This document shows, in pieces, positions 3,801 through 26,468 of a DNA stretch of 30,186 bases (within the stretch, counting starts at the first letter, position 1; each line of letters begins with the position of its first letter). Origin of the DNA: a virus. The stretch spans positions 1 through 30,186 of the IMG/VR virus record IMGVR_UViG_3300020475_000543; one strand, given 5' to 3'. Both the position numbers and the translations under genes were made by a program. Under the pieces are notes generated by a model. The model was not told the DNA's origin. It saw nothing but the letters and a program-made list of their open reading frames with translations, and did no database searches.

Positions 3801-6800
3801 CTATCATTACTATTGTGTGAATCATCCTGGTATGGGTAGTACTTGGATTCAAGATCCTGCTAACAGTGGATTTGGTACTAACACAGAATGTAAGATTGGT
3901 GGAATAGATCTTCAAGAATTTTGTTCTAAGTGGAGAAAGATTACAGCATTTTCTAGTGTTGATAAAACAATTACCTTTGCAGCAGATAGTAATGCAACTC
4001 ATACAGAAGAAGGTGGTGGAGGTGGATTCAATAAATGTACAAAGGATGTTGAATATGATACTGGTAATAAACCACGTTGGCCAATGCGTTTCACCAAGAT
4101 CACTGGTACGTTCTATGAGAATGATGCTTTCTGGAATTGGATCAATAACTATTCTGCTGTAGTTTCTAATAATGCTAGGTATCAGGGTGGATCACATATT
4201 GCTGGTGAATATTGGGCTCAGTTAGAAGCAGAAGAAAATGTTTCTGATGGTAAACCTGTTCAGTACTTCCCAGTTCCAAAATCAAGATTTACTCATGAAT
4301 CAATAGGAGCAGAATTTGATAGTACACACGCTTATCCAAACAATACCTTCTATAATGCAGGTTCTCGTTGGGGTCGTGGTATGTACGACAATCAACAACA
4401 TAAATTCAATCCAGTACCAGAAGAATTTGGTAGGGATCATATCTATGATGCTATACCAGCATTCCAAACTTATATTGATTTAGTTGCATCTTGGACAGAA
4501 CCAAGTGGTTCTTTGGCAACACTGACTAATGGCAGCAATCTTAGTAAGGATTTATCAATTGCTACTATTACAACCTTTGCTAATGAAACTGTATCATCTG
4601 GTGCTACACCAGTATATGAATTAGTTTCTGGTGGAGGAAGATCTCCTTTCACTAAGACTGGTAGTAATTATGTAATAGATGGAACAGGAATATCTGTCAA
4701 TGAAACAACTGGTGCTTGTTCAGGAACTTGTACTAGTCCAGTCAATGACACAACTTATACTCTTCAAATAAGAGACAAAGTAACCAATCAAACTAATGAT
4801 TATAGCTTTACTCTTGTAGGAACTGGTTCTAGTTCTTCTACACTTACAATTACTGGAAGTCCTTCAAATGCAACAGGTGATGGTTCATATTCAGTAGACA
4901 GTGGAACTGTATCCTATACAGCTTCAGCTACAGATAGTTTAGGCACAACACTTGAGTATCAGTGGAAGTATGCAATAAACTCTACACAAGCAAACTTGGG
5001 TAATTGGACTAATGTTCCAATTACAGGAACATTTGCAGGTGCTGGAGGAGTAAATTCAGCAACTCTAACTATTCCTGATAATGTATTACTCAATGGGTAT
5101 TACTTTATATGTACTGTCAATTCAGCTACTGCTGCATCCTCTGCAGATACTGGATATGCATCACTGACTATAACAGTTACAACATCTTGTACTGTATGGT
5201 GGAGTGGACAAACAACTCTTTGGCCAGCAAGTGAATGTGCAGGAACAAGTGGATCATGTGTACAAGCAGAAGTTGAGATACAAACAGTTTCTAGTGATGG
5301 AGCAACTCTAACTGTCGTTCCAGAATATTCTAGTACACCAACCAATTCTACTGGTATTGTTAGTACAATAGTTGATAGTAATAATTTCTGTTTAGAAGCA
5401 TTAGGTGGTAATGGTTCCAATGGACATCCATTATACCGTGTAAAACTTGGTGAAGGTACTGATGGAAACACAGCATTCTCTGATGATACTGCACAGATTC
5501 AAATAAAAGCATCTCACCCAACTGGTCTTGCAAATGATGTTATTGCGACTGGTTTAGGTGGTCCATTTACAGTTCAAGGTCCGAGTTATACATTTAGTAC
5601 TAATCTTGCAGCAACTGGATCTATACAATCTGGCAATAGTCACACACTTTCAATAACTGGTGCTAATGCTGGTTCTGGTGGTGGTGTTGCAGATGCAACT
5701 GTAACTTGGTGGTATAAAGAAAGTGGTGGAAGTACTTGGTCAATAGTTGATAGCACAGAAAGTTGGTATGGATCAAGAGGCACTGGAACTGCTAATGCAG
5801 GAACATTAGTAATTACACCAACTACTTCATTAGATCAATCTCAATGGAAAGCAGTTTTATATACTGATACTGCAAGTAGTGGAGTTACTGATACTAAGAA
5901 CATCATCAAATTTAGTGGTGTTGCCAGTGACGTACAAACTCTAACAGTTCAGGCTGCACCTACAATTGATATCGTAAAACCAAGTGGTGTTACTCCTGAC
6001 AATAGTATTTCAATTACTAAAGGTACTCTATCTACATCTGAGCACTTACTAACAATTGCATCAGATGGTTTACCTGATCCTGCTACTCATGGAGCAGACT
6101 TTGTATCTCCAAATGAGATGCAAGTTATAGATCGTAGTCATAGTATTATTTACAGAGGAGGTACTAATACTCCATCTCTAACTCCTTGGACTGGTTCACC
6201 ATTAGGTGTATTCGCTAACGGTGTTAGTGTAAGATATCCATCTGCAGGAAACGATACACTTCCTGAGTGTCAACAAACAAGTCCTGCTGGATTAGAATTC
6301 AACGAAGTTCATTTTGCTGCATTATACAATGCAGACTCAGCAAGTGGATTTACAGAAGGTAATGGAGAATATCATTATCAAACAAGTGCGTTCTTGACTT
6401 CTGGTGATTGGGATGGAGTAAAAGACGGATCTGCTTATTACAGAAATAGTAATTCTGGTGGAGATTATTTCAGACATGCTGATGGTCACTCCAAGATTGT
6501 AGGTATCGCATATGATGGATATCCAATTTACGGTCCTTGGGGTTATACAACATATAACGATAATACTTCAGCACCAAAGAGACTTACATCTTCATTCGGT
6601 CTAAAAGCAACTGATGCTCATAGACCTACAAGCTTCAAGTTTACTGATCAAGTAGATTTCAATGACAGTACACCAAGTCAAACATTGGTTGCTGGAAGTT
6701 TTGTTGAAGACTATCAGTACAATCCTGGTTCTGGTGACTTAGACCAATCTAATGGTAGATATTGTGTAACTCCTGATTATCCAAATGGAACTTATGCATA

Positions 6801-9300: not shown

Positions 9301-9301
9301 C

Positions 9302-9550
9302 ATGGCACAATCGTCTTGGGGATCGGCAATATTTTCCACCCCTACATCACCACATTTATCTACTAAGCCAGTAGTTCTTACTACTGATACCTTTGAAGCC
9401 CAAAGAAGAAAGATCAATCAGATCTCAACTAACGTGGGTGACGTTGGACAACTTTCTGGCAACTTTGCAAATCTTGTTGCAGCTGTTAATGCTTTCCAGG
9501 CTGGTGTTTCAGAAGATGATGTCATTGCACTTACAATCGCACTAGGATAA
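9302..9550 (+). CDS. Small conserved-type structural-region protein, unknown function
   Basis: An 82-residue protein starting one base after the stop of the 2810-aa gene, without a clear Shine-Dalgarno, so it is probably translated by re-initiation. The N-terminus is Ser/Thr/Pro-rich ('SSWGSAIFSTPTSPHLS'). The middle 'FEAQRRKINQISTNVGDV' is helical and polar. The C-terminus is Ala/Val-rich with a possible short helix. I do not recognise a family. Its place between two structural genes and similar codon use suggest a small virion or fibre-assembly component, but nothing in the sequence fixes the role. Confidence 0.75.
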   Translation: MAQSSWGSAIFSTPTSPHLSTKPVVLTTDTFEAQRRKINQISTNVGDVGQLSGNFANLVAAVNAFQAGVSEDDVIALTIALG

Positions 9551-9554
9551 CAAA

Positions 9555-9950
9555 ATGGCAAGTAAATTTAGATCAGCATCCAAGACAGCAGTGGGTCTGG
9601 GACTAACACCAATCTATAACCTAGAATTAGGAACTGGACAGACTGATAAACAAACTGTTCTTGTTGGTGTTACCTTATGTAACATCACTTCTGCTGCTAT
9701 CAATGCTTCAGTAAAGATTGATAGACCTGCTGTTAGTTTGACAGTTTCAGGGCAGAATCCAGTGTCAACTGAAGATGTTTGGTTATGTAAAAATATCCCT
9801 ATTCCTGCAGGGTCATCGTTAGAAATTATGTCAGGAAACAAAGTTGTTCTAGCATATAATGTTGCGTCAGGTGCTGGAGATTCGGTACAGGCGCAATCAT
9901 CAACTGCTTCGTCATTGGATGTCATTCTAAGTTACATGGAGATTAGCTAA
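9555..9950 (+). CDS. Small beta-rich structural protein, unknown function
   Basis: A 131-residue protein with a good Shine-Dalgarno (AGGA, 9544-9547) before the ATG. It is beta-strand rich: 'TVLVGVTLCNITSAAINASV' is followed by 'PIPAGSSLEIMSGNKVVLAY' and a C-terminal strand 'SLDVILSYMEIS'. Small proteins of this pattern (an external-interaction strand, a central 'IPAGSSLEI' turn, a final '(V)ILSYxEI') occur among tail genes of marine T4-like phages; that is recalled similarity, not a search. It ends in a TAATG overlap with the fibre gene at 9950, implying coupled translation. It is probably a minor virion or fibre-attachment protein. Confidence 0.75.
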   Translation: MASKFRSASKTAVGLGLTPIYNLELGTGQTDKQTVLVGVTLCNITSAAINASVKIDRPAVSLTVSGQNPVSTEDVWLCKNIPIPAGSSLEIMSGNKVVLAYNVASGAGDSVQAQSSTASSLDVILSYMEIS

Positions 9951-12253
9951 TGCCATATGTAGGTTATGGTGTAGAAAATAGCACCATTGATTTAGCAGAA
10001 CAGGTAATAACTGCTTCTGGAGGTCTAACAGAAACTTTATCAAGATCTGTAAACGAAGATACAGAACTATTAGTATTTGTCAACAATGTCCTAAAAGATA
10101 CCACCACTTATGAGATTGGTGGAACTCTTAGGAATGAGTTGACTTTTACTACTTCTCCAACTGCAGGAGAAATTATTCTTGTCAGATATCTTCAGAAGAG
10201 TGTTGATATTGTATCAGTTGCTCCTTCTGGAGTAAATACATGGCAAGGTAGAACTGGTGCAGTCAATCTAACATCTACTGATTTGAATGATCTAGTAGAT
10301 GCTGCAGCAGTAAAAGAGAATGCTATTGGAATATCTGAATTATCTTCCAGTTCAACAAATAACTCAGTAAGAGCAGTAAGTAATATTCATATAAAAGATG
10401 ATGCAGTAACTTCTGAAAAGGTTCAGAGCTCTTCTAGTTCAAATAGTAACAGAGCAATTGGTACTGATCATATTAAAACTAATGCAGTAACTGGTGATAA
10501 AATTCCTGATGATACAATTGATCCTAAAAAATTAGCACTAAAATATGCTGATGAGACTGCTGCAAATGCTGCTGGTCTTGTAGAAGGTGATATCTATTAT
10601 GATGAAACATTAGATGAACTAAGATATAATAATGGTAGTGGATGGCAAGATGTTCAGATAGGTGGAACCACAACAGACGTTGGTGACTTACCACTGAATA
10701 CAACATATACAGGAATTAGATATGCTCCTGATATTACAACAACAGAAAATTTAACAGTAAATCCTTCTTCAGCACATGCTTATACCTTCTGTGATAATCT
10801 CACAGTTGATAATGGTCATGTTTTAGATATTGCAAATGGAAAGAATTTGAAGGTTGGTGTATTTGCAAACTTAGGTGGATTCACTGGAGGAACAATTGGT
10901 GGTGGAGGTAGTAGTACATCTATACCAGAACTTACGGATGTTACTGTAAGTGGACCATCAGTCAAGCAAGTCTTACGTTACAATGGAAGTGAATGGGTAA
11001 ATACACAACTAACATATAGCGATCTTAGTGGTCAACCATTTACTCAGGTACAAGCAGATTGGAATCAAACAGAAACAACTCATCTGTCTTATATCAATAA
11101 CAAACCAACTATAGTAACTCCAAACTCTTCTCCAACATTTACGGATCTTACTGTCAGTGGAAATTTACAGGTTCTTGGAACAACTACTCAGAACAATGTT
11201 ACTACTCTAAATGTCAGTAATAATGAATTAGTATTGAATGATAATGTTGGAATCTATGAAGGTAATGCTACTAATGGATCTGCAGTTGTTACTAATATAG
11301 GATCTACTTCTGCTATTACTCAAGGAGCAACAGTTACTATTGATAGTAATGGAGGATCTCTAACACTATCTGGATCTGCAACTGTTGCATCTATTGATAG
11401 TGCAACACAGATAACTCTGAATGTAAACTTTGGTGGTAGTGGTAGTGCTACAGGAATCAAATTATCAATACCAACAGCACCATCTGCTAATGCTTCAGTT
11501 GTAGTAGAACGTTCTGCATCAAATGATGTAAGAGTTAGATGGAATGAAACATCCGATAGATGGGAGTTTACTAATGATGGTACAACATATACCAACATTC
11601 CTCTTCCTTCAGAATATGGTGATTACAATAACCTTCAGAATCTTCCAAACCTTGCTGCTCAACAACAACAAGTAGATTGGAATTCTACTACTGGTGTTAC
11701 TTCAATTGCTAATAAACCAAATATTCCAGATTATCTTGGTGAGTTATCAAACGTATCAACTGCTGCTGGTATTAATAACAGTCCAACTATTACAACTGGA
11801 TATGTATTGAAGTGGAATGGTAGTGCTTGGGCTCCTGCTGCTGAAGCTGGTGCATCTGGTGGTGGTACTACAGGTCTTCAAAGTAGAACAGATGTTGCAA
11901 TTGCATCTTCTTCTTTAGATAATGATGCTACAGATTCAAACGTCAATGCAACTGGATATAAGTCTTATGTATTGTTAGCAATAACAACTGATGCAGATGC
12001 GTGGGTTCGAGTTTATTCAACTGCTGCTGCTAGACTTGCAGATCTAAATAGATCTGAGGGTACTGATCCATTACCAGGATCGGGTGTAATTGCTGAAGTT
12101 AGAGTAAATGGAACTCAGATGATTTCTCCAGGAACCATCGGTTTCAACTTTGAAACTGCACCAGTGAATACAATATATCTTTCTGTAACAAACAGAAGTG
12201 GTTCGACTCAACAAATAACAACAACACTTAAGGTTATACAACTAGAGGCATAA
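9950..12253 (+). CDS. Tail-fibre-like structural protein
   Basis: A 767-residue protein whose ATG overlaps the previous stop. The N-terminal ~115 residues ('ELLVFVNNVLKDTTTYEI', 'GEIILVRYLQKS') form a module also present in the 321-aa protein at 16953 and typical of T4-like marine phage fibre N-termini. Next come a 'NIHIKDDAVTSEKVQ' / 'DHIKTNAVTGDKIPDDTI' repeat, a Gly-rich stretch, two 'QVDWN...NKP' motifs (near 11056 and 11671), and a 'LTVSGNLQVLGTTTQ...' cassette shared with the 326-aa protein at 14750. The final ~130 residues form a separate beta domain. No S74 peptidase or other enzymatic motif is seen. A trimeric tail-fibre subunit is likely; receptor specificity cannot be inferred. Confidence 0.8.
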   Translation: MPYVGYGVENSTIDLAEQVITASGGLTETLSRSVNEDTELLVFVNNVLKDTTTYEIGGTLRNELTFTTSPTAGEIILVRYLQKSVDIVSVAPSGVNTWQGRTGAVNLTSTDLNDLVDAAAVKENAIGISELSSSSTNNSVRAVSNIHIKDDAVTSEKVQSSSSSNSNRAIGTDHIKTNAVTGDKIPDDTIDPKKLALKYADETAANAAGLVEGDIYYDETLDELRYNNGSGWQDVQIGGTTTDVGDLPLNTTYTGIRYAPDITTTENLTVNPSSAHAYTFCDNLTVDNGHVLDIANGKNLKVGVFANLGGFTGGTIGGGGSSTSIPELTDVTVSGPSVKQVLRYNGSEWVNTQLTYSDLSGQPFTQVQADWNQTETTHLSYINNKPTIVTPNSSPTFTDLTVSGNLQVLGTTTQNNVTTLNVSNNELVLNDNVGIYEGNATNGSAVVTNIGSTSAITQGATVTIDSNGGSLTLSGSATVASIDSATQITLNVNFGGSGSATGIKLSIPTAPSANASVVVERSASNDVRVRWNETSDRWEFTNDGTTYTNIPLPSEYGDYNNLQNLPNLAAQQQQVDWNSTTGVTSIANKPNIPDYLGELSNVSTAAGINNSPTITTGYVLKWNGSAWAPAAEAGASGGGTTGLQSRTDVAIASSSLDNDATDSNVNATGYKSYVLLAITTDADAWVRVYSTAAARLADLNRSEGTDPLPGSGVIAEVRVNGTQMISPGTIGFNFETAPVNTIYLSVTNRSGSTQQITTTLKVIQLEA

Positions 12254-12255
12254 GG

Positions 12256-14118
12256 ATGGCAGTCACCAAGACAGAATTTAACGTCAACAGTGGAAACGCT
12301 GGATGGACAGCTCAACAAGTTTTAGATACGCTAGAAACAGCGTTGGGTCCTACTGGTGCTGGACACCATAGTGGTGCTTCTACTAGTGGAACACTAAGAA
12401 AAATTGTAAAACCAACTGACGGATGGGATCAGCTTGGTGGTCAAGTTCCTATCGCCACTCAGAGTACTCCAGATAGAACATGGAATTCAGATTATACTGA
12501 TACTGGAACTTACTATAATGAATGGGATTATACAGATCCTTCACCCCCAAGTGGAGGTACTGCATGTGCAATTACTGTAAGAAGATATGGTTCGATTCAT
12601 CAAAGTTCCTACCAAGGTCAAACTGTCGGTGTATTTGTAAAGACTCCTGGTTCTGGTTACACCAATGGTTATGCTCTTACAATTCCAGCAGCTAATATTG
12701 GTGGAACAGGTGCTACAGATATTGTATTTGGTACAAATAGTGCAACTGTAGCAGAAATCAAAGTATTGACTACTCAAGGTGGAACTTCTAATTGGTGGTG
12801 GAAAGATACTGATGCTCATGCAAATCATGGTAGTTGGGCTTCGCAGATCAAATCTGGTGTTTGTAGAGTAACAAATGATGCTGCTAAATCTTATGGAACA
12901 ACATATTATTCATTTAGTATAGTCGAACCAGGCAGCAGCAGACCTGGACTTATATGTTTCAAATCAGCAGTAGGATTTGATTCAACTTTAACGAATCATG
13001 GAAGTGGTAGTTCACATGGATATCAAGGAGGGTTCACAGGAGAAGTTGGGATGGATAATTTTGGAACGGATTACCTTCAAACAGTAGGTAATGGATCAGT
13101 TCCTGCATCAGGAAAAACTTTGGGTGCTATATCTCGTAGTAGTCTCGCATCACGTATTAGATTTATACCACAATGTTTTACAGACACTACAACTGGATTG
13201 CCTACTTCAAGTAATAACTATGGATCATATGGTGCTTCTTTAGTAAGAGGATTTTGTAGAGCAACTACCCCAAAAGATTACCCAATAAAAATTGTAACCT
13301 ATAAAGCAGATGCTACTCAGGACAATAGATATTGTATTATTCAATTCCAACAAGTAGTAGCTGGAGATGTTGAAACTTACTTAACATTTTCTTTGAATGT
13401 AGGAACTCAATGGGGTCAAAATATTTGGGATTTGGATCATGTATTCCAAGGTGGATTATCATTCTATAGAGATACTGCTAGACCAACAAAAGGTACAGCA
13501 ACTGTTGCATCTTCAGAAAGTGCTGATGTTGTTGCTATATCAACTACGGATTGTGTACAGGATAAGAATCATGATTATTCAGATAATATGCCCAATCATT
13601 TTGCTGGAAATCCAGTGACATCATCTACAAGAATGAGAGAATGTTTATATGGATATGATAAGTATGATCCTGCGTATGGGCAACATTCACCACATGATTG
13701 GAGAGAAGATCATTATCTATGCAACTTTGCTGGTAGGGATTCAAATGATGGTGGTTTAGATAGATACGATTCTACTGAAATAAGACAGTATCATAGAAAT
13801 GATACTTTTGATAAAATAATTTACAATAGTGTAAATTATAAGGTAGATGCTGCTGCTAATTTCCATAAACCAATAAAAGGTTTACCTATAAGCTCCAACA
13901 TGTTCCCATGTCCATATTATCTTCCAGACGATTTTGTAATGATTCAATTAGCAGTTACTCCTGGAGCAACTGTGGTTAAATCTGGAGATACTATTACTGT
14001 CAGTGGTAGTGAGGTTTATACTGTTGTTGAATGTTCTGGTTCAACTAACCAGACTTTATATGATAATGCTAGTGTTACTGTTAGTACATGGATATGCTTC
14101 TGTGCTAGGACAACCTAA
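12256..14118 (+). CDS. Large virion structural protein, probable tail/fibre component
   Basis: A 620-residue protein following the fibre gene by two bases, with GAGG (12245-12248) as possible ribosome-binding site. The N-terminus 'MAVTKTEFNVNSGNAGWTAQ' leads into a 'TVGVFVKTPGSGYTNGYALT' beta module of the same 'GSGYxxGxxLT' type as in the partial gene at 1-659. The middle contains many aromatic and His residues ('GTSNWWWKDTDAHANHGSW', 'YDKYDPAYGQHSPHDW'). The C-terminus is Ser/Thr-rich beta ending in 'WICFCARTT'. No catalytic motif is recognised. Its place among fibre genes and its composition indicate a virion protein; a tail-surface or adhesin role is an inference. It ends in a TAATG overlap with the next gene. 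Confidence 0.75.
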   Translation: MAVTKTEFNVNSGNAGWTAQQVLDTLETALGPTGAGHHSGASTSGTLRKIVKPTDGWDQLGGQVPIATQSTPDRTWNSDYTDTGTYYNEWDYTDPSPPSGGTACAITVRRYGSIHQSSYQGQTVGVFVKTPGSGYTNGYALTIPAANIGGTGATDIVFGTNSATVAEIKVLTTQGGTSNWWWKDTDAHANHGSWASQIKSGVCRVTNDAAKSYGTTYYSFSIVEPGSSRPGLICFKSAVGFDSTLTNHGSGSSHGYQGGFTGEVGMDNFGTDYLQTVGNGSVPASGKTLGAISRSSLASRIRFIPQCFTDTTTGLPTSSNNYGSYGASLVRGFCRATTPKDYPIKIVTYKADATQDNRYCIIQFQQVVAGDVETYLTFSLNVGTQWGQNIWDLDHVFQGGLSFYRDTARPTKGTATVASSESADVVAISTTDCVQDKNHDYSDNMPNHFAGNPVTSSTRMRECLYGYDKYDPAYGQHSPHDWREDHYLCNFAGRDSNDGGLDRYDSTEIRQYHRNDTFDKIIYNSVNYKVDAAANFHKPIKGLPISSNMFPCPYYLPDDFVMIQLAVTPGATVVKSGDTITVSGSEVYTVVECSGSTNQTLYDNASVTVSTWICFCARTT

Positions 14119-15741: not shown

Positions 15742-16932
15742 ATGCCACTTTTATCTAGAACAGGATCAGTATATGGAAGTATGTTGCCTATTGGTAGGGC
15801 AGCAGGTGGGGGACCTTGGGAAAATGATGGATCAACTTGGAGTAGTTATGTAAGTGGTGGTCCATTTGATATTGCAAAGACAAAGGCATTTGATACTGCT
15901 CATGGTACTGTTAATGAAGGAGATTGTCTGAGAACAACAAACAATGCTCCTATGGTTACTATGGATCTATCAGGTAATCCACAGTGGATAGATGAAAGTA
16001 TATACATTGCAGCGAATACTGATTATTCTTCTTGGATGGAAATTACTGTTGATGGAACTGTATATACACAAACTCCGTCAAATGGAAAATATACTTGGAA
16101 CCTCAGTGGATCTCTTACACAGGTTAGAATACAGAATGATAATGTCAATGGTAGAACATACTTAGAGGGAATAAAAATTGATGGTCAGTGGATGGTTGAT
16201 GGACTTACTGGACAATATGATCCACTACCTTCTGTTGATTTCAATGGAGTTGATCAGAGTTTAGAGATGGCAGCAACAAATGGTAATTTGAATTTTGCTG
16301 CTGATGTTCCAGTTACAATTGAATTTTTTGTCAAGTTGGATACTTTTACACAAGACGATCATCCTTATCAAACTATGGTAGGAAGATGGCACGGTAGTAA
16401 TGGTTATTGTTGGTTGATTGATACTGATGCTGGTCAAGGTGACGTTAACCTTTATCTTGGTAATGTAAGTGGTGGTTACGTTGGATCTATTCATGCTCCT
16501 AATAACAGTATCCCCGACAGAGGTTGGCATCATATAGCTTGTGTCAAGATAAGTAATGCTACATCAAATTCTGGAAAGATTTATGTTGATGGTAGTGAAG
16601 TAGCATCTGGTAATTGGCAATGGGGTAACACTAATACAGCAACAGATGTACAGGTAGGAAATAATAATACTAATCATGGTTCTTCTCTTAATGGGCATAT
16701 ATCTAATTTCAGAGTAACTGTTGGTCAAGCACTTTATACTTCTAATTTTACAGCACCAACATCACCTCTTACAACTACTTCTCAAGGAGCAACTGCTTCT
16801 AATGTGAAAATTTTAATGTGTCAAGATACTGATCCTACAGTTGGAGCAGTAACCACAGGAACGATTACAAATCTTGGAAGTACTCCAACAGCAAAGGATA
16901 GTCCATTCCCTGCTTCATATTACAGTAGTTAA
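15742..16932 (+). CDS. Virion protein with LamG/concanavalin-like lectin domain
   Basis: A 396-residue protein with a strong ribosome-binding site AAGGA (15729-15733) overlapping the previous stop. After a Gly-rich N-terminus ('YGSMLPIGRAAGGGPWENDG') and a beta region, residues ~164-335 show a LamG-type jelly roll: 'SVDFNGVDQSLEM', 'PVTIEFFVKLD', 'RGWHHIACVKIS', 'GKIYVDGSEVASG', 'LNGHISNFRVTVGQALY'. The 'WHHIAxVK...GKIYVDG' core and the 'ISNFRVxxGxALYxxNF' end are characteristic of LamG domains in marine phage tail proteins. Such domains usually bind carbohydrate. The C-terminus (~340-396) is a conserved-looking 'LTTTSQG...VKILMCQD' extension common after these domains. A host-surface glycan-binding tail protein is the likely role. 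Confidence 0.85.
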   Translation: MPLLSRTGSVYGSMLPIGRAAGGGPWENDGSTWSSYVSGGPFDIAKTKAFDTAHGTVNEGDCLRTTNNAPMVTMDLSGNPQWIDESIYIAANTDYSSWMEITVDGTVYTQTPSNGKYTWNLSGSLTQVRIQNDNVNGRTYLEGIKIDGQWMVDGLTGQYDPLPSVDFNGVDQSLEMAATNGNLNFAADVPVTIEFFVKLDTFTQDDHPYQTMVGRWHGSNGYCWLIDTDAGQGDVNLYLGNVSGGYVGSIHAPNNSIPDRGWHHIACVKISNATSNSGKIYVDGSEVASGNWQWGNTNTATDVQVGNNNTNHGSSLNGHISNFRVTVGQALYTSNFTAPTSPLTTTSQGATASNVKILMCQDTDPTVGAVTTGTITNLGSTPTAKDSPFPASYYSS

Positions 16933-16952
16933 CTAAATAAAAGGAAAAAGCT

Positions 16953-17918
16953 ATGGCTTATATTGGTAATATACCAAAGACAGGTAATCAAAGAAAAATT
17001 GATTTTCCATTAGATAGAGTTGGAGGAGGTGCTGGATTCAACGGTTCTTCCCTGCAATTTTATCTAAAGGTTGGTGGTGATCCAGTATATCCAGGTGCTT
17101 ATCAAGTTCTTGTTGTGATCAATGGTGTCATAAAGGAACCAGCAAATCATTATAATATCAATAATGATCTGTTAGTATTCACTGCAGGAAATGCTCCACA
17201 AAGTTCAGATACTTTCTTTGCAGTAGTTCTTGGTGATCGTCTTGATGTTGGAACCGTTTCTGATGCAAGTATAATCGCAACTAAGATTGTTGATGGAACA
17301 ATCACAAATGATAAAATTGGTAATCTGCAAATTGATGCCAATAAGTTGGCTAATGATTCCGTCCAAACGGTTAAGATCAAAGACAATAATGTAACCGCAG
17401 CTAAGTTAGATCAGACTACTGGTGCAGTTACACCTCCCACATTGAATCTTGGAGGATATGCTCCTAGTTCATTACCTAATGCACAAAGGGTTGGTCAAAT
17501 CGCTGCGGATACAAACGGTGATTATTATCTTACAAAAGAAGTAAGTGGATCAGTTGCGTGGACACCACTAGTAAATCAAGAGACTATTCTGTCTTATGTT
17601 GGATATGGTTCCGCAGTAAACACGTCTACATTTACTATTGACGGAAGCACTAACAAACTAAATAGCAATTATATGCTAGACAGCACAGCTGGTGCATATA
17701 CTATTAATATTTCAGCTGCTCCTACTATAGGAAGTTTCATCAGATTGGTTGATGTTACAAATAAATGGAGTATAAATAATATTACTGTGGATGCTAGTGC
17801 GTCAAGCAAAGAATTCAAAGATTATTTGGATTCAGTAGACTCAGAACTTCTTCTTGACACTAATGGTTGGGAAGTTCTTCTTGTATATAATGGAGTAAAC
17901 TGGAAAATAGTTACATAA
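16953..17918 (+). CDS. Tail-fibre-like structural protein
   Basis: A 321-residue protein with a strong AAGGA site (16941-16945). The N-terminus 'MAYIGNIPKTGNQRKIDFPL' and 'YQVLVVINGVIKEPANHYNI' match the fibre-attachment module seen less clearly at the start of the 767-aa fibre. Residues ~105-150 contain 'IVDGTITNDKIGNLQIDANK', a 'xxGxIxxxKI' repeat typical of coiled fibre segments. The C-terminal half is beta-rich and ends 'SELLLDTNGWEVLLVYNG'. No enzymatic or lectin motif is seen. It is likely a tail-fibre or tail-collar fibre. It contains an exact TATAAATA at 17771-17778, inside the coding frame. Confidence 0.8.
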   Translation: MAYIGNIPKTGNQRKIDFPLDRVGGGAGFNGSSLQFYLKVGGDPVYPGAYQVLVVINGVIKEPANHYNINNDLLVFTAGNAPQSSDTFFAVVLGDRLDVGTVSDASIIATKIVDGTITNDKIGNLQIDANKLANDSVQTVKIKDNNVTAAKLDQTTGAVTPPTLNLGGYAPSSLPNAQRVGQIAADTNGDYYLTKEVSGSVAWTPLVNQETILSYVGYGSAVNTSTFTIDGSTNKLNSNYMLDSTAGAYTINISAAPTIGSFIRLVDVTNKWSINNITVDASASSKEFKDYLDSVDSELLLDTNGWEVLLVYNGVNWKIVT

Positions 17919-18308: not shown

Positions 18309-19208
18309 ATGGCAGATTTTAGACTTGGCAGATTAAAATTTAAATGGAAAGGTGATTGGGTAGCCAGCACAGCTTATGTCATCGATGACATCGTAAAGTT
18401 TGGTGCTAATAGCTACGTAGCAACCACCAACCACACTTCAGCAGCAAGTGCTGATGTTTTTTATTCTGACGCAAACGGTGTTTCCAAATGGGGATTACAT
18501 CTAGAGGGAGTAAAGAATGTAGGAGAGTGGACAGCATCTACTTTCTATAAATTGAATGATGTTGTCAAATATGGTAACACGTTATACCTAGTTACTGTTG
18601 GACATTCATCAACGTCCACATTCGACTCAACAAAGTTTTCTGAATATGTTGGGGGATTCCAATTTGAAGATAGTTGGAGTAACCTAACAGCGTATCAACC
18701 AGGAGATGTCGTCTCCTTTGGTGGATACACTTATATTGCAAAGCAATCCAATAACAATAAGCAACCCAATACGTATTTGAATGCTCCCAATGATATCTGG
18801 GATATTCTAACGACTGGGTTTTCTGTTGTTGGTACATATGATAATCTGGTCACTTATGCTCCAGGTAATGTCGTTCAGTTTGGTGGTTATGCGTATTCCG
18901 CAAAAACAACTACCGTTGGTGTTGCACCAAATCAATCTGGACAAACATCATGGGATCTCGTTATAAAAGGTTTTGAATGGAAAGGTGTGTGGTCAACAGT
19001 TACCGCATATTATCCAGGCGACGTGGTTTTTAAAGCACCGAGCACTTATATAAATATAGAAGAATCGACTAATAACGACCCTGCTACTGCCACTACTAAG
19101 TGGTCAATGTTTACTGAAGGTACTAATTCCGCATCTTTGGTAACGCAGAATCAACTAAAAGCTGTAGATACGAAAGCTCTAGGCTACGCAATCACTTTTG
19201 GTTTATAA
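18309..19208 (+). CDS. Five-repeat CBM5/12-like (chitin-binding-type) tail protein
   Basis: A 299-residue protein made almost entirely of five ~50-residue repeats with the CBM5/12 pattern 'W...txYxxgDvVxxxgxxYxA': 'WVASTAYVIDDIVKFGANSY' (~17-36), 'WTASTFYKLNDVVKYGNTLY', 'WSNLTAYQPGDVVSFGGYTY', 'YDNLVTYAPGNVVQFGGYAY', 'WSTVTAYYPGDVVFKAPSTY'. Repeats are separated by 'xGLxxEG/xGF' spacers that would continue the beta fold. Copies 3 and 4 are most alike; copy 4 has lost the leading Trp. In bacterial chitinases this family binds chitin; in phages it is widespread and probably binds other polysaccharides. A surface-glycan-binding fibre or baseplate decoration is likely. An exact TATAAATA lies near its 3' end (19049-19056). 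Confidence 0.82.
   Translation: MADFRLGRLKFKWKGDWVASTAYVIDDIVKFGANSYVATTNHTSAASADVFYSDANGVSKWGLHLEGVKNVGEWTASTFYKLNDVVKYGNTLYLVTVGHSSTSTFDSTKFSEYVGGFQFEDSWSNLTAYQPGDVVSFGGYTYIAKQSNNNKQPNTYLNAPNDIWDILTTGFSVVGTYDNLVTYAPGNVVQFGGYAYSAKTTTVGVAPNQSGQTSWDLVIKGFEWKGVWSTVTAYYPGDVVFKAPSTYINIEESTNNDPATATTKWSMFTEGTNSASLVTQNQLKAVDTKALGYAITFGL
19049..19056 (+). promoter_or_regulatory. Candidate T4-type late promoter before the 2112-aa gene
   Basis: Exact TATAAATA, 191 bases upstream of the ATG at 19248 and inside the preceding gene. Predicted start near 19062. Two poorer matches lie closer (TATAAACT at 19204-19211, CATAAAGA at 19226-19233). Chance occurrence is possible. Confidence 0.28.
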
Positions 19209-19247: not shown

Positions 19248-22200
19248 ATGGCAAAGAAACTACTTTACGATTATACGTTTGATGCATCAGCAAGAACAGT
19301 GGCTATAGCAGGTCACGTTGATGTCAGAAAACTTTTATTCATCAATAACGCCACAAGAGGCACAACAATTTATGCCTTAGGTGATGCAGACCTAAAGGTT
19401 ACAAATACAGCGTATGACGCTATAACAGATATAACAACTTATACTCTGACGTATGACACTTCTAGTGCAAGTCATGCTGACGCAGATAAGTTACAAATTT
19501 TTATTGATGAAGAAGGTGCAGAGTTTAAACCAACGGAAACGTTTGTTGATCCTGTCAGTAAACTAAGAGTATCAAACCCAAACACCCTAATTGACACTGA
19601 CTTTGAATATAGTCTTCAGTCAACTAAGTGGGAAACACTAGAAAGAATTCACCAAATTCCTTCATTCTATTCATCTACAGGAGACGTTCCTCTTGGAGAT
19701 GTAAAATCAATTACTTCAGTCAATGGAAGTAAGGATATCACCATCAAGACTAATGGGGTACACGGTCTTGTAAATGGTATTCCACTTGATATCAGAGGTC
19801 TTACACAACAGTCTGCAGAAGGTACATTCATAATCAAGGCTGTTCCCGATGATCAGTCATTCGTTTATGAAGCAAATACTGATCAGACATTTACAGGAGA
19901 TATAAGTACTGTTTATGCTAACGTAATTATTGGTAGATTCTACGTTGGTTCTCAGTTATCTCTTGGAGAGTATTCTGCTGTTACTACAAACGCAGCAGCA
20001 CAAAGTACCCTAACAATCAAGACTCCAGTAAAGTCTAACTATGCAAAAGGTACTCAGTTCTATATTACTAACTCTATTGCTGTAAAACGTAAAGAGTTTG
20101 ATGGTAGAGCATTTACTTCTGGTGGTGGAGTTGATTTCTCACCAACCATTTCATATAAAGAAACTACACAGATGATTCTGTGGAAGCCTGAAGGAACAGA
20201 TACTGAACAGTTCCTTGTTCCAAGTGCTTCATATATGAACTCTACTACTAACACAATTACTCATTATGTTAATAGTGTAGAGACTAATCATGGTCTAAAG
20301 ACTGGTGACTTTATGTTCCTGTCTTATGTAAACGGTAACGTTACTGGTTTTAGTTCTGCAGGTACTTCAGGTACTAGTGCAACATCTACTAACGGTGGTA
20401 ACGGTATTTACTATGTTATCAAAGTTACTGATTCAACTTATAAACTTGCATCAAGTCCAACAAACTGTGCTGCAGGAACTCCAGTAAGTTTCACTTTGAG
20501 TGATACTGGACAGTCAGCAACGCAGCTTGAGATGAAATTATTTGGTAGAGGATATTCTTCTACTGTTATGAACCCATATGAGTTTGATGTTATTGAGTGT
20601 GGAGATATTAATGACACAGCGTTTGGTAGGAGACAGAGATTCTTCTTCCCTGAGTCAATCGATACTTCACAGTATACAATTACAATTCCTAATCACCAAT
20701 TCAAGGATGGACAACCTGTAATATTCCAGAGGGGTCCTTCTCCAAATAGTACTCCTAGTAGTTGGAGTGATCAGTATTGTTACTACATTGAGTATGTTGA
20801 TGCTGATACAGTAAAACTATGTACTTCATTCAACTCACGAGATCCTAACCATGATGGTCCTTACTATGGTGCTGGTGTAAGTAGTATAGCATCAGTTGGA
20901 AACCAAGGAAACTTATATACTTGGGGTACTCCATTCTCACTATGGCCTGCTATCAAGTGTGCTAGAGATATTACCAACAACGCATCTGGTGGTGTACAAA
21001 ACTCCGTTTCTTGGTATAACAGGAACAGAATTATTTGTGAGCACTCAGTTGTAAACTTCGTAGAAGGAGATAAGATCTGCTTTAGATCTAGAAGTAGTGT
21101 TCCAGGTAATATACAGGACACTCCAAATAACTATGACTATAATATGGATGAGAGAACTTACTATGTAAGATATCCAGCCATCAACCAGTCAGTTTCAACT
21201 AAGAACTTTGAGTTCTCAGTTTCAAGAACTCCTAATGGTCCTATTCATGATATTAGTGATTGGCCAAACACAGAGCATTGCTTTGTTTTCAAGATTGAAA
21301 CAGTATCTACTGCTAATACTTGGTATTCACCTCAGCACGGATTCACTACTAACCAAGACGGAGACCCAGATTACTGGCTCCAGTATCGTTTCGACTCCAA
21401 CAACTCTGTTGGTTCTTCGGTAGGTAACATGAGTTCAAACTATTGGTACTGGATGATTCCTGTTACTAATAACCACTTCAGAGTTGCTCTTGCATCTAGT
21501 GATGGAAGTAACAACCAGCCTTTCAGTAGTGGAAGACCTTATCCTAACCAATATCCACAACACAGAGCGAACTCATATATCATCAACCTCACCCACTTTA
21601 GTGGTGATGGAACGAACTTCAGACATAAGTTCCGTGGTGATAATATAGGTAATCCATTCCTTGATACATTCAAGATTGATAATCATGGATTCTCAGAAGG
21701 TAATGCTGTAAGGTATAACTCTAATGGAAACCCTGTTATTGGAGGTCTTCAGAATGGAGCAACCTACTACTGTAGAAATGTAAGTACAGATAGATTTGAA
21801 CTTTCAGATTCTTATGGTGGTACTAGACTAAACATATCCTCTGCTTCTGCTACATCATCTCCAAACCATTACTTTGAAGATACTTCTGCAAAGGGTTCTA
21901 TTGATGGTGCGTATGAAATTACTGCTAAGAATGCAGATGGACTAAATTATGACATGGCGACCAATACACAGATCTTTGGTAAGACTCTTGTATTCTACCC
22001 ACAACAAACATGTGACCTCAAGAGAGGATGGTTCTACATCAAGGATCACGGTCTAAAAACTGGTACTGCTGTTCTATACACAGTTCCTTCAGGTGGTACA
22101 GCAATTGGTAGTAATCCATTACCATCTACTGCACAACAGTCTGCAGGTTATTCATACATGACTCATGATACTACGTATTATGTACGTAGGATTTCAAGAA

Positions 22201-25200
22201 ACTGGTTCGCACTTGCTACTACTGAAGCTAATGCTCAGAATGACGTTACTGTAAAAGAGTACTTCAACTTAGGTAATGATCAGAATGATAACTATCAGCA
22301 TACACTTTATGCAAGTTCAGTCTTCGGTGAAGTAGTTGGTTCTGGTCGTATAACATATACTACTAGGGATAAAACTTGGGATGGATCTAATCAAAGTAAT
22401 GTAAACACATACTCAAACTACGTAACAATTGGTTCTCACCAATTCCAAAGTGGTGACTATGTTGAATACAACGGATTCTCTGGTGCTACAGCAATCAAAG
22501 GTCTAGACTTCGGTGAGAAGTATTACATCCACAGATGGGGTAGTTCTACTATTTCATTCCACAAGAAGAGAAATGATGCACGAAGAAGAAGAAATTCTAT
22601 CAAACTATTCGGTGCAGGAACAGGAACCTTACACCAGGTAAGATACGCTCAGAACGTTCTGAAAGGAACGCAAGATAGAGGACGTTGGAACTCTTCAACA
22701 GAATACTTTGTTGGAGATATTGTAACTCAACAGTATAACGACTCTCAGAGTCAACCACATGATTACTATTATGTTGCTAGTCAAGACTCCTTGGATAACT
22801 GGGATGACTTGAGATATGATTATTCAGATTCTAATAACACAGGTCAAACACCACCCAACAGTCTTGGAAATAACTGGTGGAGACGTTTGAGTGACTATCA
22901 GCAACAGACTGGTGGATCTACAGGTGGATCACTAGAAACAAATATGATCAACCAGTACACTCCTGGTGAGCATGTTCTCCTAGACGATGAGCGTCTATGT
23001 GGATATCAGTATGGATATGGATATTGGAGTTACTCTAATGTAGACAACGGTGGTACTTATGTAAACACACCTGGTTCTAACTATCACAACTTCAGAATGG
23101 CAGATGCTGTTCACTACAGAAATGAAGGTAAGTGGTATGCACTAGAGCAACAAGTAACTACACTACCTACCGATTACGGTGGATTAGAAGATGGAAGCAT
23201 CTATTTCGTCAACGTTGTTGATTACTATAGATTCTCCCTACACCAAAGTCCTGATGAAGCAAGACAAGGTATTAACGCAATTACATTAGCATATGCTTCT
23301 GGTAACAGTTCTTACTATAACCAGCATAGATTCTACAGAATGGAACCTGATATCGTTCCTATCAAAATTATCTCTATCTCTGACCAGAATGAGATGACTG
23401 TGGAAGAACCTTCAACACCTCGTGTGATTGAATTCGACCCACAGGAAAACGCACAAACTGATATCACTCCACAAACAACCGTTACGGTTTGTGATACTAA
23501 CAACGAAATGTTCTTCTTGAAGACAGTTGAAGGTGTCGAAGGTGCTAATGGTGGTAAAGGTGGTGGACTGTATTATGGTTGGGATAAGTATATGAGAACA
23601 GGTACAAGGGTTATCTACTCTCATGATACCGAAGATAGTGCTATCAACGGATTCTCAAAAGACTATAACTACTTCGTTATAAACATGAACAATGGTTACT
23701 ACAGATTTGCTGGTAACGGAACCAATGGTTCATCATATAGACAGTATGCATACTCTGGTAACTATGTAAGTTTCAGTGATACAGGACAAGGTAACAACCA
23801 CACTTGGACTATTTGTACTGAGAACTACAACAACCACAACTATATACTTCCTACGAATGTATATGTCAAACCAAGTTCTTATGCGTTGCATAGACCGTTT
23901 GATGGTGGTGTAGAGATCAATCCAGGTAAGTCTGCTGACTCATCAATTGTTAGACAGACACGTAGATACTTCCGTTACCAGTCTGGTAAAGGTTTACAGT
24001 ACTCAACTGCTACAAACTTCAATCCACCTTTGGAAACGAAGTCTATAACTGGTGGTACTGATGCAAGTTCTAATCCTAACTGTACAATCGTAACAAGGAG
24101 ACCTCATTTCCTTAACGTTGGTGATTTCATCTCATTAGAAGATGTAACCGTTTCTGGTGGTACTAACCATTATCTTGTTAGTAATGCCGAAGTTGCTACA
24201 GTAACAGATGAATTTACATTCACATATCTACTTGCTGGAACACCTTCAGATGCGACACCTGCTGGATTCCCAACACTTCATAAGAATGGTTGGAACAATG
24301 CTGTTGTTCGTGCTGGTATGTTTGATGACCAGAATGGATTCTTCTTTGAGTATGATGGTCAAAACCTCATGGCTGTTAGAAGATCTTCTACACAACAAAC
24401 TGCTGGTTCAGTAAGTGCTAGTTATGAGTCACAGATAATAACTGGTAATGGAACATCATTTACTAAGCAACTCGCTGTTGATGATTACATAGTTCTACGT
24501 GGTATGTCTTATAAGGTTGCATACATTCAGTCTGATACTGAGTTGTATATGACCACAGCATATAGAGGTCAGTCTTCTACTAATATCATAATGACGAAGA
24601 CAGTTGATACTAAGACTCCTTCTTCTGCATTCAACCTTGATAAGTGCGATGGCACAGGTCAAAGTGGATTTGAATTGAACACTAAGAGACTACAGATGGC
24701 ATACATCGATTACTCTTGGTACGGTGGTGGTAAGATCCGCTACGGATTCAAAGATCAGCATGGTAGAGTATTCTACGCTCACCAGTATGTTCACAGTAAC
24801 ATATTCAACGAAGCATACTTCAGATCTGGTAACTTACCAGCACGTTATGAAGTAAGTACTATTGGAGATAGAGAAACTGGTAGTAAGTTCTCTCCATCAC
24901 TATTCCACTGGGGTGCTTCAGTTATTATGGATGGTCAGTTTGAAGATGATAAGGCATACTTATTCTCTGCTGCTGCTGACACAACCTACCTACTTGACCA
25001 GAAAGAGGACGGTGACGAAGATCAGGCAAACAGGATCTATCCTATGCTAAGTATCAGACTATCACCATCTGTTGACGCAGGTGTCAAGGGTAACATTGGT
25101 ACACGTGATCTAATCAACCGAATGCAACTTCAGTTGAAGGCGGTTTCAATTACGTTATCTGATGGTAGTTCATCTGTTGGTTCTGACGTTTCTCAGCAAT

Positions 25201-25586
25201 CACAGGATCCTAAGAAGTCTTGTACTGTAAGACTAATCTTGAACGGAGACCTATCAACCCCATCATGGATCGATACTGCATCTCCAGGACTATCACAGGT
25301 TGTGTTCCATACAAACCAAACTGAGAGTGAATTTGCTAAGATTCAAGACCGTGTAACAAACGGTATCAATCTACTCGAATTCCGAGCAAATGCAAACGGA
25401 ACCACAGAACAGGTTCTGGGTGAGGTTGCTACGCTAGGTAACTCAATTATGGGTGGTGACTACACATATCCAAATGGACCTGACACTCTAACTATTGCGG
25501 TCATACCTGACCACACATACACGAGTTCCAGTAGGCAGTATACAATCTGCTCTGCAAGGATCACTTGGACTGAATCCCAAGCATAA
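19248..25586 (+). CDS. Giant virion structural protein with tandem FCCH-like beta modules
   Basis: A 2112-residue protein with a good Shine-Dalgarno (AGGA, 19237-19240). About eleven diverged modules share 'xHG(F/L)xxGxxVxY...YYVxxVxxxxFxL'; His positions are near residues 172, 348, 483, 599, 697, 813, 934, 1064 and 1620, with degenerate copies near 1290 and 1450. The pattern resembles the E1-FCCH-like module found in many phage structural proteins. A single CBM5/12-like repeat lies at ~1144-1175 ('RWNSSTEYFVGDIVTQQ'). The C-terminal ~350 residues contain 'YIDYSWYGGGKIRYGFKDQH', 'GNLPARYEVS' and 'NIGTRDLINRMQLQLKAV', which resemble large virion proteins of T4-like cyanophages. No enzymatic motif is seen. 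It is likely a long tail/baseplate surface protein. It uses more C-ending codons than the upstream giant gene and ends just before a strong terminator. Confidence 0.85.
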   Translation: MAKKLLYDYTFDASARTVAIAGHVDVRKLLFINNATRGTTIYALGDADLKVTNTAYDAITDITTYTLTYDTSSASHADADKLQIFIDEEGAEFKPTETFVDPVSKLRVSNPNTLIDTDFEYSLQSTKWETLERIHQIPSFYSSTGDVPLGDVKSITSVNGSKDITIKTNGVHGLVNGIPLDIRGLTQQSAEGTFIIKAVPDDQSFVYEANTDQTFTGDISTVYANVIIGRFYVGSQLSLGEYSAVTTNAAAQSTLTIKTPVKSNYAKGTQFYITNSIAVKRKEFDGRAFTSGGGVDFSPTISYKETTQMILWKPEGTDTEQFLVPSASYMNSTTNTITHYVNSVETNHGLKTGDFMFLSYVNGNVTGFSSAGTSGTSATSTNGGNGIYYVIKVTDSTYKLASSPTNCAAGTPVSFTLSDTGQSATQLEMKLFGRGYSSTVMNPYEFDVIECGDINDTAFGRRQRFFFPESIDTSQYTITIPNHQFKDGQPVIFQRGPSPNSTPSSWSDQYCYYIEYVDADTVKLCTSFNSRDPNHDGPYYGAGVSSIASVGNQGNLYTWGTPFSLWPAIKCARDITNNASGGVQNSVSWYNRNRIICEHSVVNFVEGDKICFRSRSSVPGNIQDTPNNYDYNMDERTYYVRYPAINQSVSTKNFEFSVSRTPNGPIHDISDWPNTEHCFVFKIETVSTANTWYSPQHGFTTNQDGDPDYWLQYRFDSNNSVGSSVGNMSSNYWYWMIPVTNNHFRVALASSDGSNNQPFSSGRPYPNQYPQHRANSYIINLTHFSGDGTNFRHKFRGDNIGNPFLDTFKIDNHGFSEGNAVRYNSNGNPVIGGLQNGATYYCRNVSTDRFELSDSYGGTRLNISSASATSSPNHYFEDTSAKGSIDGAYEITAKNADGLNYDMATNTQIFGKTLVFYPQQTCDLKRGWFYIKDHGLKTGTAVLYTVPSGGTAIGSNPLPSTAQQSAGYSYMTHDTTYYVRRISRNWFALATTEANAQNDVTVKEYFNLGNDQNDNYQHTLYASSVFGEVVGSGRITYTTRDKTWDGSNQSNVNTYSNYVTIGSHQFQSGDYVEYNGFSGATAIKGLDFGEKYYIHRWGSSTISFHKKRNDARRRRNSIKLFGAGTGTLHQVRYAQNVLKGTQDRGRWNSSTEYFVGDIVTQQYNDSQSQPHDYYYVASQDSLDNWDDLRYDYSDSNNTGQTPPNSLGNNWWRRLSDYQQQTGGSTGGSLETNMINQYTPGEHVLLDDERLCGYQYGYGYWSYSNVDNGGTYVNTPGSNYHNFRMADAVHYRNEGKWYALEQQVTTLPTDYGGLEDGSIYFVNVVDYYRFSLHQSPDEARQGINAITLAYASGNSSYYNQHRFYRMEPDIVPIKIISISDQNEMTVEEPSTPRVIEFDPQENAQTDITPQTTVTVCDTNNEMFFLKTVEGVEGANGGKGGGLYYGWDKYMRTGTRVIYSHDTEDSAINGFSKDYNYFVINMNNGYYRFAGNGTNGSSYRQYAYSGNYVSFSDTGQGNNHTWTICTENYNNHNYILPTNVYVKPSSYALHRPFDGGVEINPGKSADSSIVRQTRRYFRYQSGKGLQYSTATNFNPPLETKSITGGTDASSNPNCTIVTRRPHFLNVGDFISLEDVTVSGGTNHYLVSNAEVATVTDEFTFTYLLAGTPSDATPAGFPTLHKNGWNNAVVRAGMFDDQNGFFFEYDGQNLMAVRRSSTQQTAGSVSASYESQIITGNGTSFTKQLAVDDYIVLRGMSYKVAYIQSDTELYMTTAYRGQSSTNIIMTKTVDTKTPSSAFNLDKCDGTGQSGFELNTKRLQMAYIDYSWYGGGKIRYGFKDQHGRVFYAHQYVHSNIFNEAYFRSGNLPARYEVSTIGDRETGSKFSPSLFHWGASVIMDGQFEDDKAYLFSAAADTTYLLDQKEDGDEDQANRIYPMLSIRLSPSVDAGVKGNIGTRDLINRMQLQLKAVSITLSDGSSSVGSDVSQQSQDPKKSCTVRLILNGDLSTPSWIDTASPGLSQVVFHTNQTESEFAKIQDRVTNGINLLEFRANANGTTEQVLGEVATLGNSIMGGDYTYPNGPDTLTIAVIPDHTYTSSSRQYTICSARITWTESQA
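19720..24250 (+). repeat. Tandem FCCH-like protein modules (about 11, diverged)
   Basis: Module landmarks (codon of the conserved His): 19761, 20289, 20694, 21042, 21336, 21684, 22047, 22437 and 24105, plus two degenerate copies around 23110 and 23590. Each combines an 'HG(F/L)xxGxxV' hairpin and, 30-60 residues on, a 'YYV/YFV' strand followed by 'FxL'. Linkers vary widely in length. DNA identity between copies is low, so the expansion is old. Confidence 0.65.
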
Positions 25587-25655: not shown

Positions 25656-26468
25656 ATGTCAGCGACTAAACCTGCAAGTAGAACAGAGCTGAAGGAATAT
25701 TGTCTAAGACGATTAGGCAAGCCTGTTCTTCAAATCAATGTGGATGATACTCAGGTAGAGGATCTCATTGATGAAAGTATTCAATATTTTAATGAACGTC
25801 ACTTTGACGGTGTTGAGAGAATGTTCTTGAAGCACAAATTTACAGCGGCTGAAATAACTAGATTCAAAGAAGGTAATACTACAACTACATCTCCTGATGG
25901 ATCTCAGTGGGAAGAGAGGAATAATTATATAGAAGTACCTATACATGTTTTAGGTATCAATAAAGTATTTGGAATGTCCTCACAATCTATCAGAGGAAAC
26001 ATGTTTGGTATTGAGTACCAGATTTTCTTGAATGATTTGTATCAGTTCGGTGCAATTGATATTTTGAATTACTATATGACTAAGACTTATTTGGAGGATC
26101 TTGATTACATCCTAAATAGTGGGTCTATCATTTCATATAGATTCAATAAGAGGGTTGACAGACTCTACATTGATGTTGATGCTAAAGACGTGGTTGAAGG
26201 TAACTATCTTGTTATTGATTGTCACAGAGCATTAGACCCAACATCTATGACTGAAGTATTTGATGATAGTTTCATGAAGAAATATCTAACTGCTAAAATC
26301 AAACAACAGTGGGGTCAGAATCTGATCAAGTTCAGAGGAGTCAAATTCCCTGGTGGTGTTGAGTTAGATGGTAGACAGGTTTATGAGGATGCTCAATCGG
26401 ACTTGAAAGAGATCGAAGAGAAAATGCTCTCAACTTATGAACTTCCACCACTTGACATGATAGGATAA
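25656..26468 (+). CDS. 13: Neck protein gp13
   Basis: A 270-residue protein of the T4 gp13 neck family (T4 gp13 is 309 aa). Landmarks: N-terminal 'RTELKEYCLRRLGKPVLQIN', 'VEDLIDESIQYFNERHFDG', 'EVPIHVLGINKVFGM', 'YQIFLNDLYQFGAIDILNYY', and late 'LTAKIKQQWGQNLIKFRGVK' with 'GRQVYEDAQSDLKEIEEKM'. gp13 with gp14 forms the neck that closes filled heads and joins them to tails. It is the first gene after the terminator/late-promoter junction, with ribosome-binding site AAAGGA. Its stop overlaps the gp14 start (TAATG), implying coupled, roughly equal translation. Confidence 0.93.
   Translation: MSATKPASRTELKEYCLRRLGKPVLQINVDDTQVEDLIDESIQYFNERHFDGVERMFLKHKFTAAEITRFKEGNTTTTSPDGSQWEERNNYIEVPIHVLGINKVFGMSSQSIRGNMFGIEYQIFLNDLYQFGAIDILNYYMTKTYLEDLDYILNSGSIISYRFNKRVDRLYIDVDAKDVVEGNYLVIDCHRALDPTSMTEVFDDSFMKKYLTAKIKQQWGQNLIKFRGVKFPGGVELDGRQVYEDAQSDLKEIEEKMLSTYELPPLDMIG

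Follow-up and report, generated by a model that had tools for sequence, protein, structure and literature searches.

The giant 2112-amino-acid (aa) protein considered here is encoded in a 30,186-nucleotide (nt) stretch of viral DNA (positions 1 to 30,186 of IMG/VR record IMGVR_UViG_3300020475_000543, hereafter the window) and is a member of a large family of phage virion proteins, PHROG 5838, with representatives in the phages S-PM2, S-RSM4, S-BM3 and S-CAM1. It carries an array of diverged modules, here called beads, which sequence comparison shows to be inserted within a conserved core and not added as an extension of one end. The profile of the family matched the protein in three stretches at its conserved ends (phrog_5838, E 3.9e-178), a second profile, phrog_1645, matched with E 5e-42, and the protein shares 67.7% identity over 100% coverage with SBM3_00190 of Synechococcus phage S-BM3, its nearest relative among the isolates of the phage collection, in which the gene order around the giant is similar.

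Hidden Markov models (HMMs) detected eight type-A modules, with the pattern HG-x-G-V...YYV...FxL, and two related type-B modules, ten in all, the first starting at nt 19722 and the last ending at nt 24227 of the window (Table 1). The family whose modules are counted also supplied the training sequences for the HMMs; of 104 proteins that had been shuffled or reversed, none was matched at an independent E-value (iE) <1 by an earlier type-A HMM, a control for type A only. Self-comparison of the protein by profile–profile alignment, with a profile built from nine aligned family members, the giant among them, gave strong off-diagonal matches, mostly 50–80 columns long, with best scores of 54.9–72.3 for seven A modules and 32.8 for A3 (residues 690–757), whilst 220 comparisons of column-shuffled profiles had a mean of 16.4, a 99th percentile of 24.1 and a maximum of 27.4, and reversed profiles scored ≤22.5. 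As the B modules reached just 25.8 and 27.3 by this method, their assignment rests on the HMM. A candidate eleventh module (residues ~590–680) was detected by profile–profile comparison alone, at about the shuffled maximum of 27.4, and had no HMM match in the protein at iE <0.01.

These results agree largely with the original prediction, made from the sequence alone, of about eleven tandem modules with very variable linkers at nt 19720–24250: ten are HMM-significant and the eleventh is marginal, the coordinates nearly coincide, and the alignments, at mostly 50–80 columns and above the shuffled controls, show that the repeat exceeds a short motif. The word tandem holds for a repeated series, but close packing needs qualification, as A modules of 54–80 residues start 116–221 residues apart. 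Four of the seven intervals between A starts are 116–131 residues, one is 171 and two are 213–221, the latter being those that contain the doubtful eleventh module or a stretch resembling a carbohydrate-binding module (CBM). Identity among the modules averages 21% and does not exceed 31% (28 pairs), and DNA-level repeats in the array are limited to short imperfect matches with no long repeat left, from which we conclude that the array is old and that a recent module duplication is ruled out.

The original prediction missed that the array lies inside a conserved core and that the number of modules differs among the members of a large family. Compact homologues of ~430 aa (S-RIM50, HMO-2011 gp65 and relatives) align over residues 83–311 with residues 1548–1942 of the giant (HHalign probability 99.6, E 6.7e-25), the B2 module and one further small barrel forming extra inserts in the giant, and their N-terminal block (39–75) aligns with giant residues 95–132 (score 29.8, against at most 19.8 in 200 permutations). 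The two blocks are 32–33 residues apart in the compact homologues (27/31 measured), 208–2754 apart in the long members (101/119 measured) and about 1440 apart in the 2112-aa protein, and the array is therefore an insertion into the core. Nearly all A modules in the family (303/306) precede the C half of the core; the other three, found in L006 and L206, lie inside it and show that beads can also enter other loops of the core. Compact and giant versions are paralogues, not alternatives, since one contig (L232) encodes both, a 3167-aa giant at 2872–12372 and a 424-aa compact protein at 15860–17131, and S-RIM32 has family matches at two places.

Family searches returned 166 phage records and many IMG/VR loci, sampled as 46 of 80 loci extracted in one set, 33 of 80 in another and 71 open reading frames (ORFs) with both ends in a third. 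From these came a family set of 119 complete, non-identical proteins of 870–3400 aa, where complete was defined by a QA/QT C-terminal end and incomplete or identical proteins (e.g. L015–L017, L020) were excluded. The YQSGKG block is present in all 119, as is the W.E[SA]Q[AT] C-terminus for which the set was in part pre-selected, B1 in 118 and B2 in 117. The number of A modules ranges from 0 to 10, with none in 57 members and 1–10 in the remaining 62, and protein length rises with that number (Spearman 0.875; with the S-PM2 clade removed, 0.773, n = 78), correlations which are descriptive because the proteins are related. Bead order is fixed within the close lineage, where each of the eight A modules found its best partner at the same index in L010, L002, L012 and L013, and is blurred among distant relatives (4/8 in L018, 5/8 in L195). 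The ratio of non-synonymous to synonymous substitution rates (dN/dS) in four pairs was 0.03–0.07 in the N anchor, 0.16–0.24 in the array and 0.15–0.37 in the C half, with synonymous sites close to saturation in two of the four pairs; purifying selection thus acts throughout and keeps the beads functional, although it cannot discriminate binding from spacing.

Outside the family, the number of A modules per protein did not exceed three in the loci scanned (ORFs of 150 aa or longer), whilst proteins annotated as tail fibres, and baseplate wedge proteins of the gp7 type, carry single modules. The long array is therefore a family trait, and single modules are spread over tail proteins. A Pfam scan of four compact, S-PM2-type and short members gave nothing above cut-off. 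Three family members (L271, L272, L273) were found on contigs that had been binned into beta-proteobacterial and euryarchaeal metagenome-assembled genomes but probably belong to phages.

The bead fold is predicted to be of the FCCH-like or endosialidase barrel-like class, with the endosialidase barrel as the closer of the two relatives on the viral side. Compared with PDB sequences, the B profile matched phage endosialidases (4hiz, E 4.5e-5; 1v0e, E 0.011) ahead of E1 enzymes (0.2–0.6), and the A profile gave a weaker match (4hiz, E 0.064). The S-PM2 orthologue was modelled with AlphaFold2 (predicted local distance difference test, pLDDT, 74.2; predicted template modelling score, pTM, 0.64), and in this model VIA matched the first B module to the phi92 endosialidase barrel (Z 10.7, root-mean-square deviation (rmsd) 2.1, 82 residues) and the second, located in the C core, to the FCCH domain of Uba6 (Z 9.8, rmsd 2.1, 75 residues). 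The VIA matches listed for the model of the array itself nearly all concern module A6, which resembles Uba6 FCCH (Z 7.7, rmsd 2.8, 79 residues) and phi92 endosialidase (Z 7.3). In the S-PM2 model the equivalent (475–555) of the small insert at giant residues ~1718–1787 matched phage tail-tube and tail-tip domains (Z 7.5–7.9). At the level of Pfam families neither assignment reached its threshold: E1_FCCH (PF16190) scored 16.4 bits on the 2112-aa protein (cut-off 29.5) and, among 45 A modules, matched two at E ≤0.1, the better at 0.017, and End_beta_barrel (PF12195) scored 25.6 bits at residues 1599–1664 (cut-off 35) and, at the same E ≤0.1, matched five of these A modules and two B modules out of 33; the scan of the protein found no other E1 domain and no sialidase domain. 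The FCCH-like label of the original prediction thus stands for the fold and falls for the family, with the phage endosialidase barrel matching about equally well, and the structure prediction of the array supports the fold of A6 whilst leaving the overall arrangement at low confidence.

Searches by sequence found no solved structure for the whole family or the compact core. A Foldseek search with the complete S-PM2 model returned top matches of low template modelling score scattered over its domains, and for this reason only the per-domain VIA matches were used. Concanavalin-A-like matches to the reunited core (residues 95–898 or 313–899, Z 6.5–8.5) and jelly-roll matches to the C-terminus (Z 6.3–8.5) lie in or near the generic range and were not relied on, and BFVD matches were mostly to unnamed relatives.

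The CBM5/12-like repeat said to be embedded in the array proved a weak best match, at 13.5 bits in the giant and 18.3 bits in the best of five segments tested, all below the Pfam CBM_5_12 cut-off of 26.2, although CBM_5_12 was the sole Pfam match in all five orthologous segments. Homology between the CBM repeats of the upstream gene and the giant was considered and rejected: an HMM derived from the neighbour gave the giant just 0.21 (as the identical copy L007) and L196 5e-5, with one match at iE <1 in 40 shuffled controls.

Presence of the family in the virion has good, though indirect, support. Table 1 of PMC9146016 lists S-SZBM1_190, a 424-aa compact homologue, as detected by liquid chromatography–mass spectrometry in virus particles purified on CsCl, with three peptides and a score of 461, and the S-PM2 and S-BM3 orthologues are recorded as virion structural proteins. 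For the giant itself we see an even chance that it is a length-variable adhesin arm displaying glycan-binding beads. Glycan binding by the beads is suggested by analogy with the beta-barrel of the K1F endosialidase, which PMC12632334 describes as a hotspot for telling hosts apart and as one of the three places at which the enzyme binds polysialic acid. The two core halves (N ~100–130, C ~1548–2112) would anchor and assemble the giant on the particle, the loop joining them having grown by about 1440 residues to hold a string of small beta-barrels (one B, eight A and perhaps one more), with the second B bead placed in another core loop; the beads would project outward as an arm of variable length, their loops making many weak contacts with host-surface glycans, and bead number would be gained and lost over evolution whilst order is kept within a lineage. 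We infer the extended shape, the oligomeric state and the position on the particle. We consider doubtful a stronger version, a multivalent and evolvable reader of glycans, in which a discontinuous, lectin-like core has taken up 0–10 divergent endosialidase/FCCH-type barrels in one of its loops, every bead is tuned to a different sugar, and the host range of abundant marine phages depends on how many beads there are and which.

Several observations weigh against an adhesin arm. Virion peptides were seen for the compact homologue and none for the giant itself, and confidence in the array model is low (pLDDT 64.6, pTM 0.40), so that a long rod, as originally proposed, is not shown; nothing points to the ring decoration proposed alongside it. 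The Z of 7.7 for the array module is at a level that VIA deems possibly generic, and both core junctions of the S-PM2 model (101–139, 314–352) have pLDDT below 50, which makes the reunited core a sequence-based result. Finally, a neck-fibre carbohydrate-binding module of phage A-1(L) failed to bind its own host, according to the available text of PMC10966104.

The beads might instead form a spacer, a whisker or stalk whose length and stiffness they set without binding anything, the C-terminal domain being the working part, an explanation that we hold possible but tentative. Length does scale with bead number (by about 134 residues for each module of either type), the modules have diverged to their low mean identity with order nonetheless held in close relatives, the two ends are the most conserved parts, almost half of the members lack A modules altogether, and the K1F barrel is described as largely permissive to mutation (PMC12632334, available text). 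Against this, the same source makes the solved relative of the barrel a sugar-binding site, and the CBM5/12-like stretch recurs, below threshold, at the same position in 5/5 tested relatives. We favour the adhesin arm because the best-studied relative of the barrel binds polysialic acid and because the gene neighbourhood of the giant encodes lectin-type domains, namely CBM_5_12 repeats and the laminin-G-like Laminin_G_3, each above its Pfam cut-off.

It seems improbable that the giant is a neck or collar component that replaces T4 wac (fibritin) and forms whiskers. It does lie directly upstream of gp13, the position of wac relative to gene 13 in T4, and gp13 also follows the family gene in S-BM3, S-CAM1 and S-CAM3 and in 22/65 members of >1200 aa; however, gp13 was not found downstream in 43/65 of these long members and was found in 0/43 members of the S-PM2 clade, counts subject to contig ends and a single gp13 query. 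A podovirus carries the family gene beside holin and endolysin, and both models are nearly all beta without long helices, whereas fibritin is a segmented coiled coil. In favour of such a replacement, the available text of PMC2984593 reports cyanomyoviruses without wac. A head decoration is very improbable: both phrog_5838 and phrog_1645 are categorised under head and packaging, which together with the earlier ring idea prompts this reading, but the label itself says just ‘virion structural protein’, the modules are common to tail fibres and baseplate wedge proteins, and the compact homologue is scarce in virions, with an exponentially modified protein abundance index of 0.23 vs. 27.64 for the capsid protein (PMC9146016, available text).

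Table 1 Features of the giant protein and its neighbours, in nt of the window.
Feature	Position	Strand	Basis
Upstream neighbour, 299 aa, CBM5/12 repeats, PHROG 9851 tail fibre	18309..19208	+	phrog_9851 E 8.8e-107
Giant virion protein, 2112 aa, PHROG 5838 / T4-GC 863 family	19248..25586	+	ORF
N-terminal anchor, residues 1-145, incl. core N half (DTDFEY..TKWE, residues 116-129)	19248..19682	+	
Module B1, endosialidase-barrel type, residues 159-207	19722..19868	+	HMM iE 2.4e-14
Module A1, residues 346-416	20283..20495	+	HMM iE 8.5e-13
Module A2, residues 477-530	20676..20837	+	HMM iE 4e-14
Possible eleventh module (marginal), residues ~590-680	21015..21287	+	Profile-profile 27.4-28.2
Module A3, residues 690-757	21315..21518	+	HMM iE 3.1e-11; profile-profile 32.8
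Module A4, residues 806-864	21663..21839	+	HMM iE 8.3e-20
Module A5, residues 928-1007	22029..22268	+	HMM iE 6.5e-21
Module A6, residues 1057-1119 (modelled domain about 1036-1137)	22416..22604	+	HMM iE 1.2e-15
CBM5/12-like stretch (weak), residues ~1144-1190	22677..22817	+	Pfam CBM_5_12 13.5 bits, E 0.076
Module A7, residues 1278-1344	23079..23279	+	HMM iE 6.8e-14
Module A8, residues 1449-1503	23592..23756	+	HMM iE 4.7e-08
C half of core, residues 1548-2112 (HRPFDGG, RYQSGKG ... WTESQA)	23889..25583	+	
Module B2, inside C half of core, residues 1607-1660	24066..24227	+	HMM iE 1.5e-09
Further small barrel-like insert in core C half, residues ~1718-1787	24399..24608	+	Compact/giant alignment gap
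Downstream neighbour, gp13-like neck protein (head-tail adaptor Ad2)	25656..26468	+	phrog_211 E 9.6e-45

The window is a piece of the tail/neck gene block of a marine T4-like myovirus, encoding the 2810-aa and 2112-aa proteins and several fibre-type genes, then the gp13 and gp14 neck proteins, a tail sheath stabiliser and the small terminase. The 299-aa protein directly upstream of the giant carries about five CBM5/12-like repeats (Pfam CBM_5_12 52.8 bits over three stretches, cut-off 26.2), and a CBM-type gene lies upstream in 12/65 long family members. In another cyanophage, S-SZBM1, the slot directly upstream of gp13 is filled by a different giant, the 2073-aa structural protein SSZBM1_200 (128574–134795; L270), which has no A or B modules at iE <0.01 and is well represented in virions, with 25 peptides (PMC9146016, available text). 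The 2810-aa protein (868–9300) contains at residues ~90–660 a subtilase interrupted by an insert: the flanks are separately above the Pfam Peptidase_S8 cut-off of 21.8 bits (29.2 and 49.3 bits), the whole protein gives no S8 match, and the stretch separating them resembles a plastocyanin-type Copper-bind domain. A protease with a cupredoxin-like insert is unusual for a likely virion protein, which further carries a YHYH domain at residues 1772–1987 (Pfam E 1.9e-30, above cut-off).

The family, the fold class and the single modules are already known, whilst we found no description of the inserted array of 0–10 copies or of the compact/giant relationship in the literature searched, which lay mostly outside subscription journals. 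According to the available text of PMC2984593, marine cyanomyoviruses lack recognisable T4 wac, g10, g11, g12, g34, g35 and g37. Related phages which differ mainly in bead number suggest an adjustable arm touching host-surface sugars, and the array shows a route by which virion proteins can grow, through insertion inside a core instead of extension at an end. With constant ends and natural versions bearing zero to ten A beads, the effect of bead number and identity on adsorption is directly testable.

Compared with known systems, the giant stands closest to its relatives in PHROG 5838 / T4-GC 863 (S-PM2p175, S-RSM4_036, SBM3_00190), which have its N- and C-terminal anchors and B modules at the same two places; S-PM2-type members (~1100 aa) differ in that A modules were absent in 46/46 tested, whereas the giant has eight. 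The compact ‘virion structural proteins’ of PHROG 1645 (S-RIM50, HMO-2011 gp65, S-SZBM1_190) possess both core halves in the same order, but at ~430 aa are without the array. With the FCCH domain of ubiquitin E1 enzymes (PF16190; Uba1, Uba6) the beads have the predicted fold in common, yet the protein falls below the family cut-off and has none of the other E1 domains. The beta-barrel of phage endosialidases (PF12195; phi92 4hiz, K1F 1v0e) shares both the predicted fold and a distant similarity to the B-type sequence, but occurs as one barrel within an enzyme, whereas the 2112-aa protein would present many barrels in an array.

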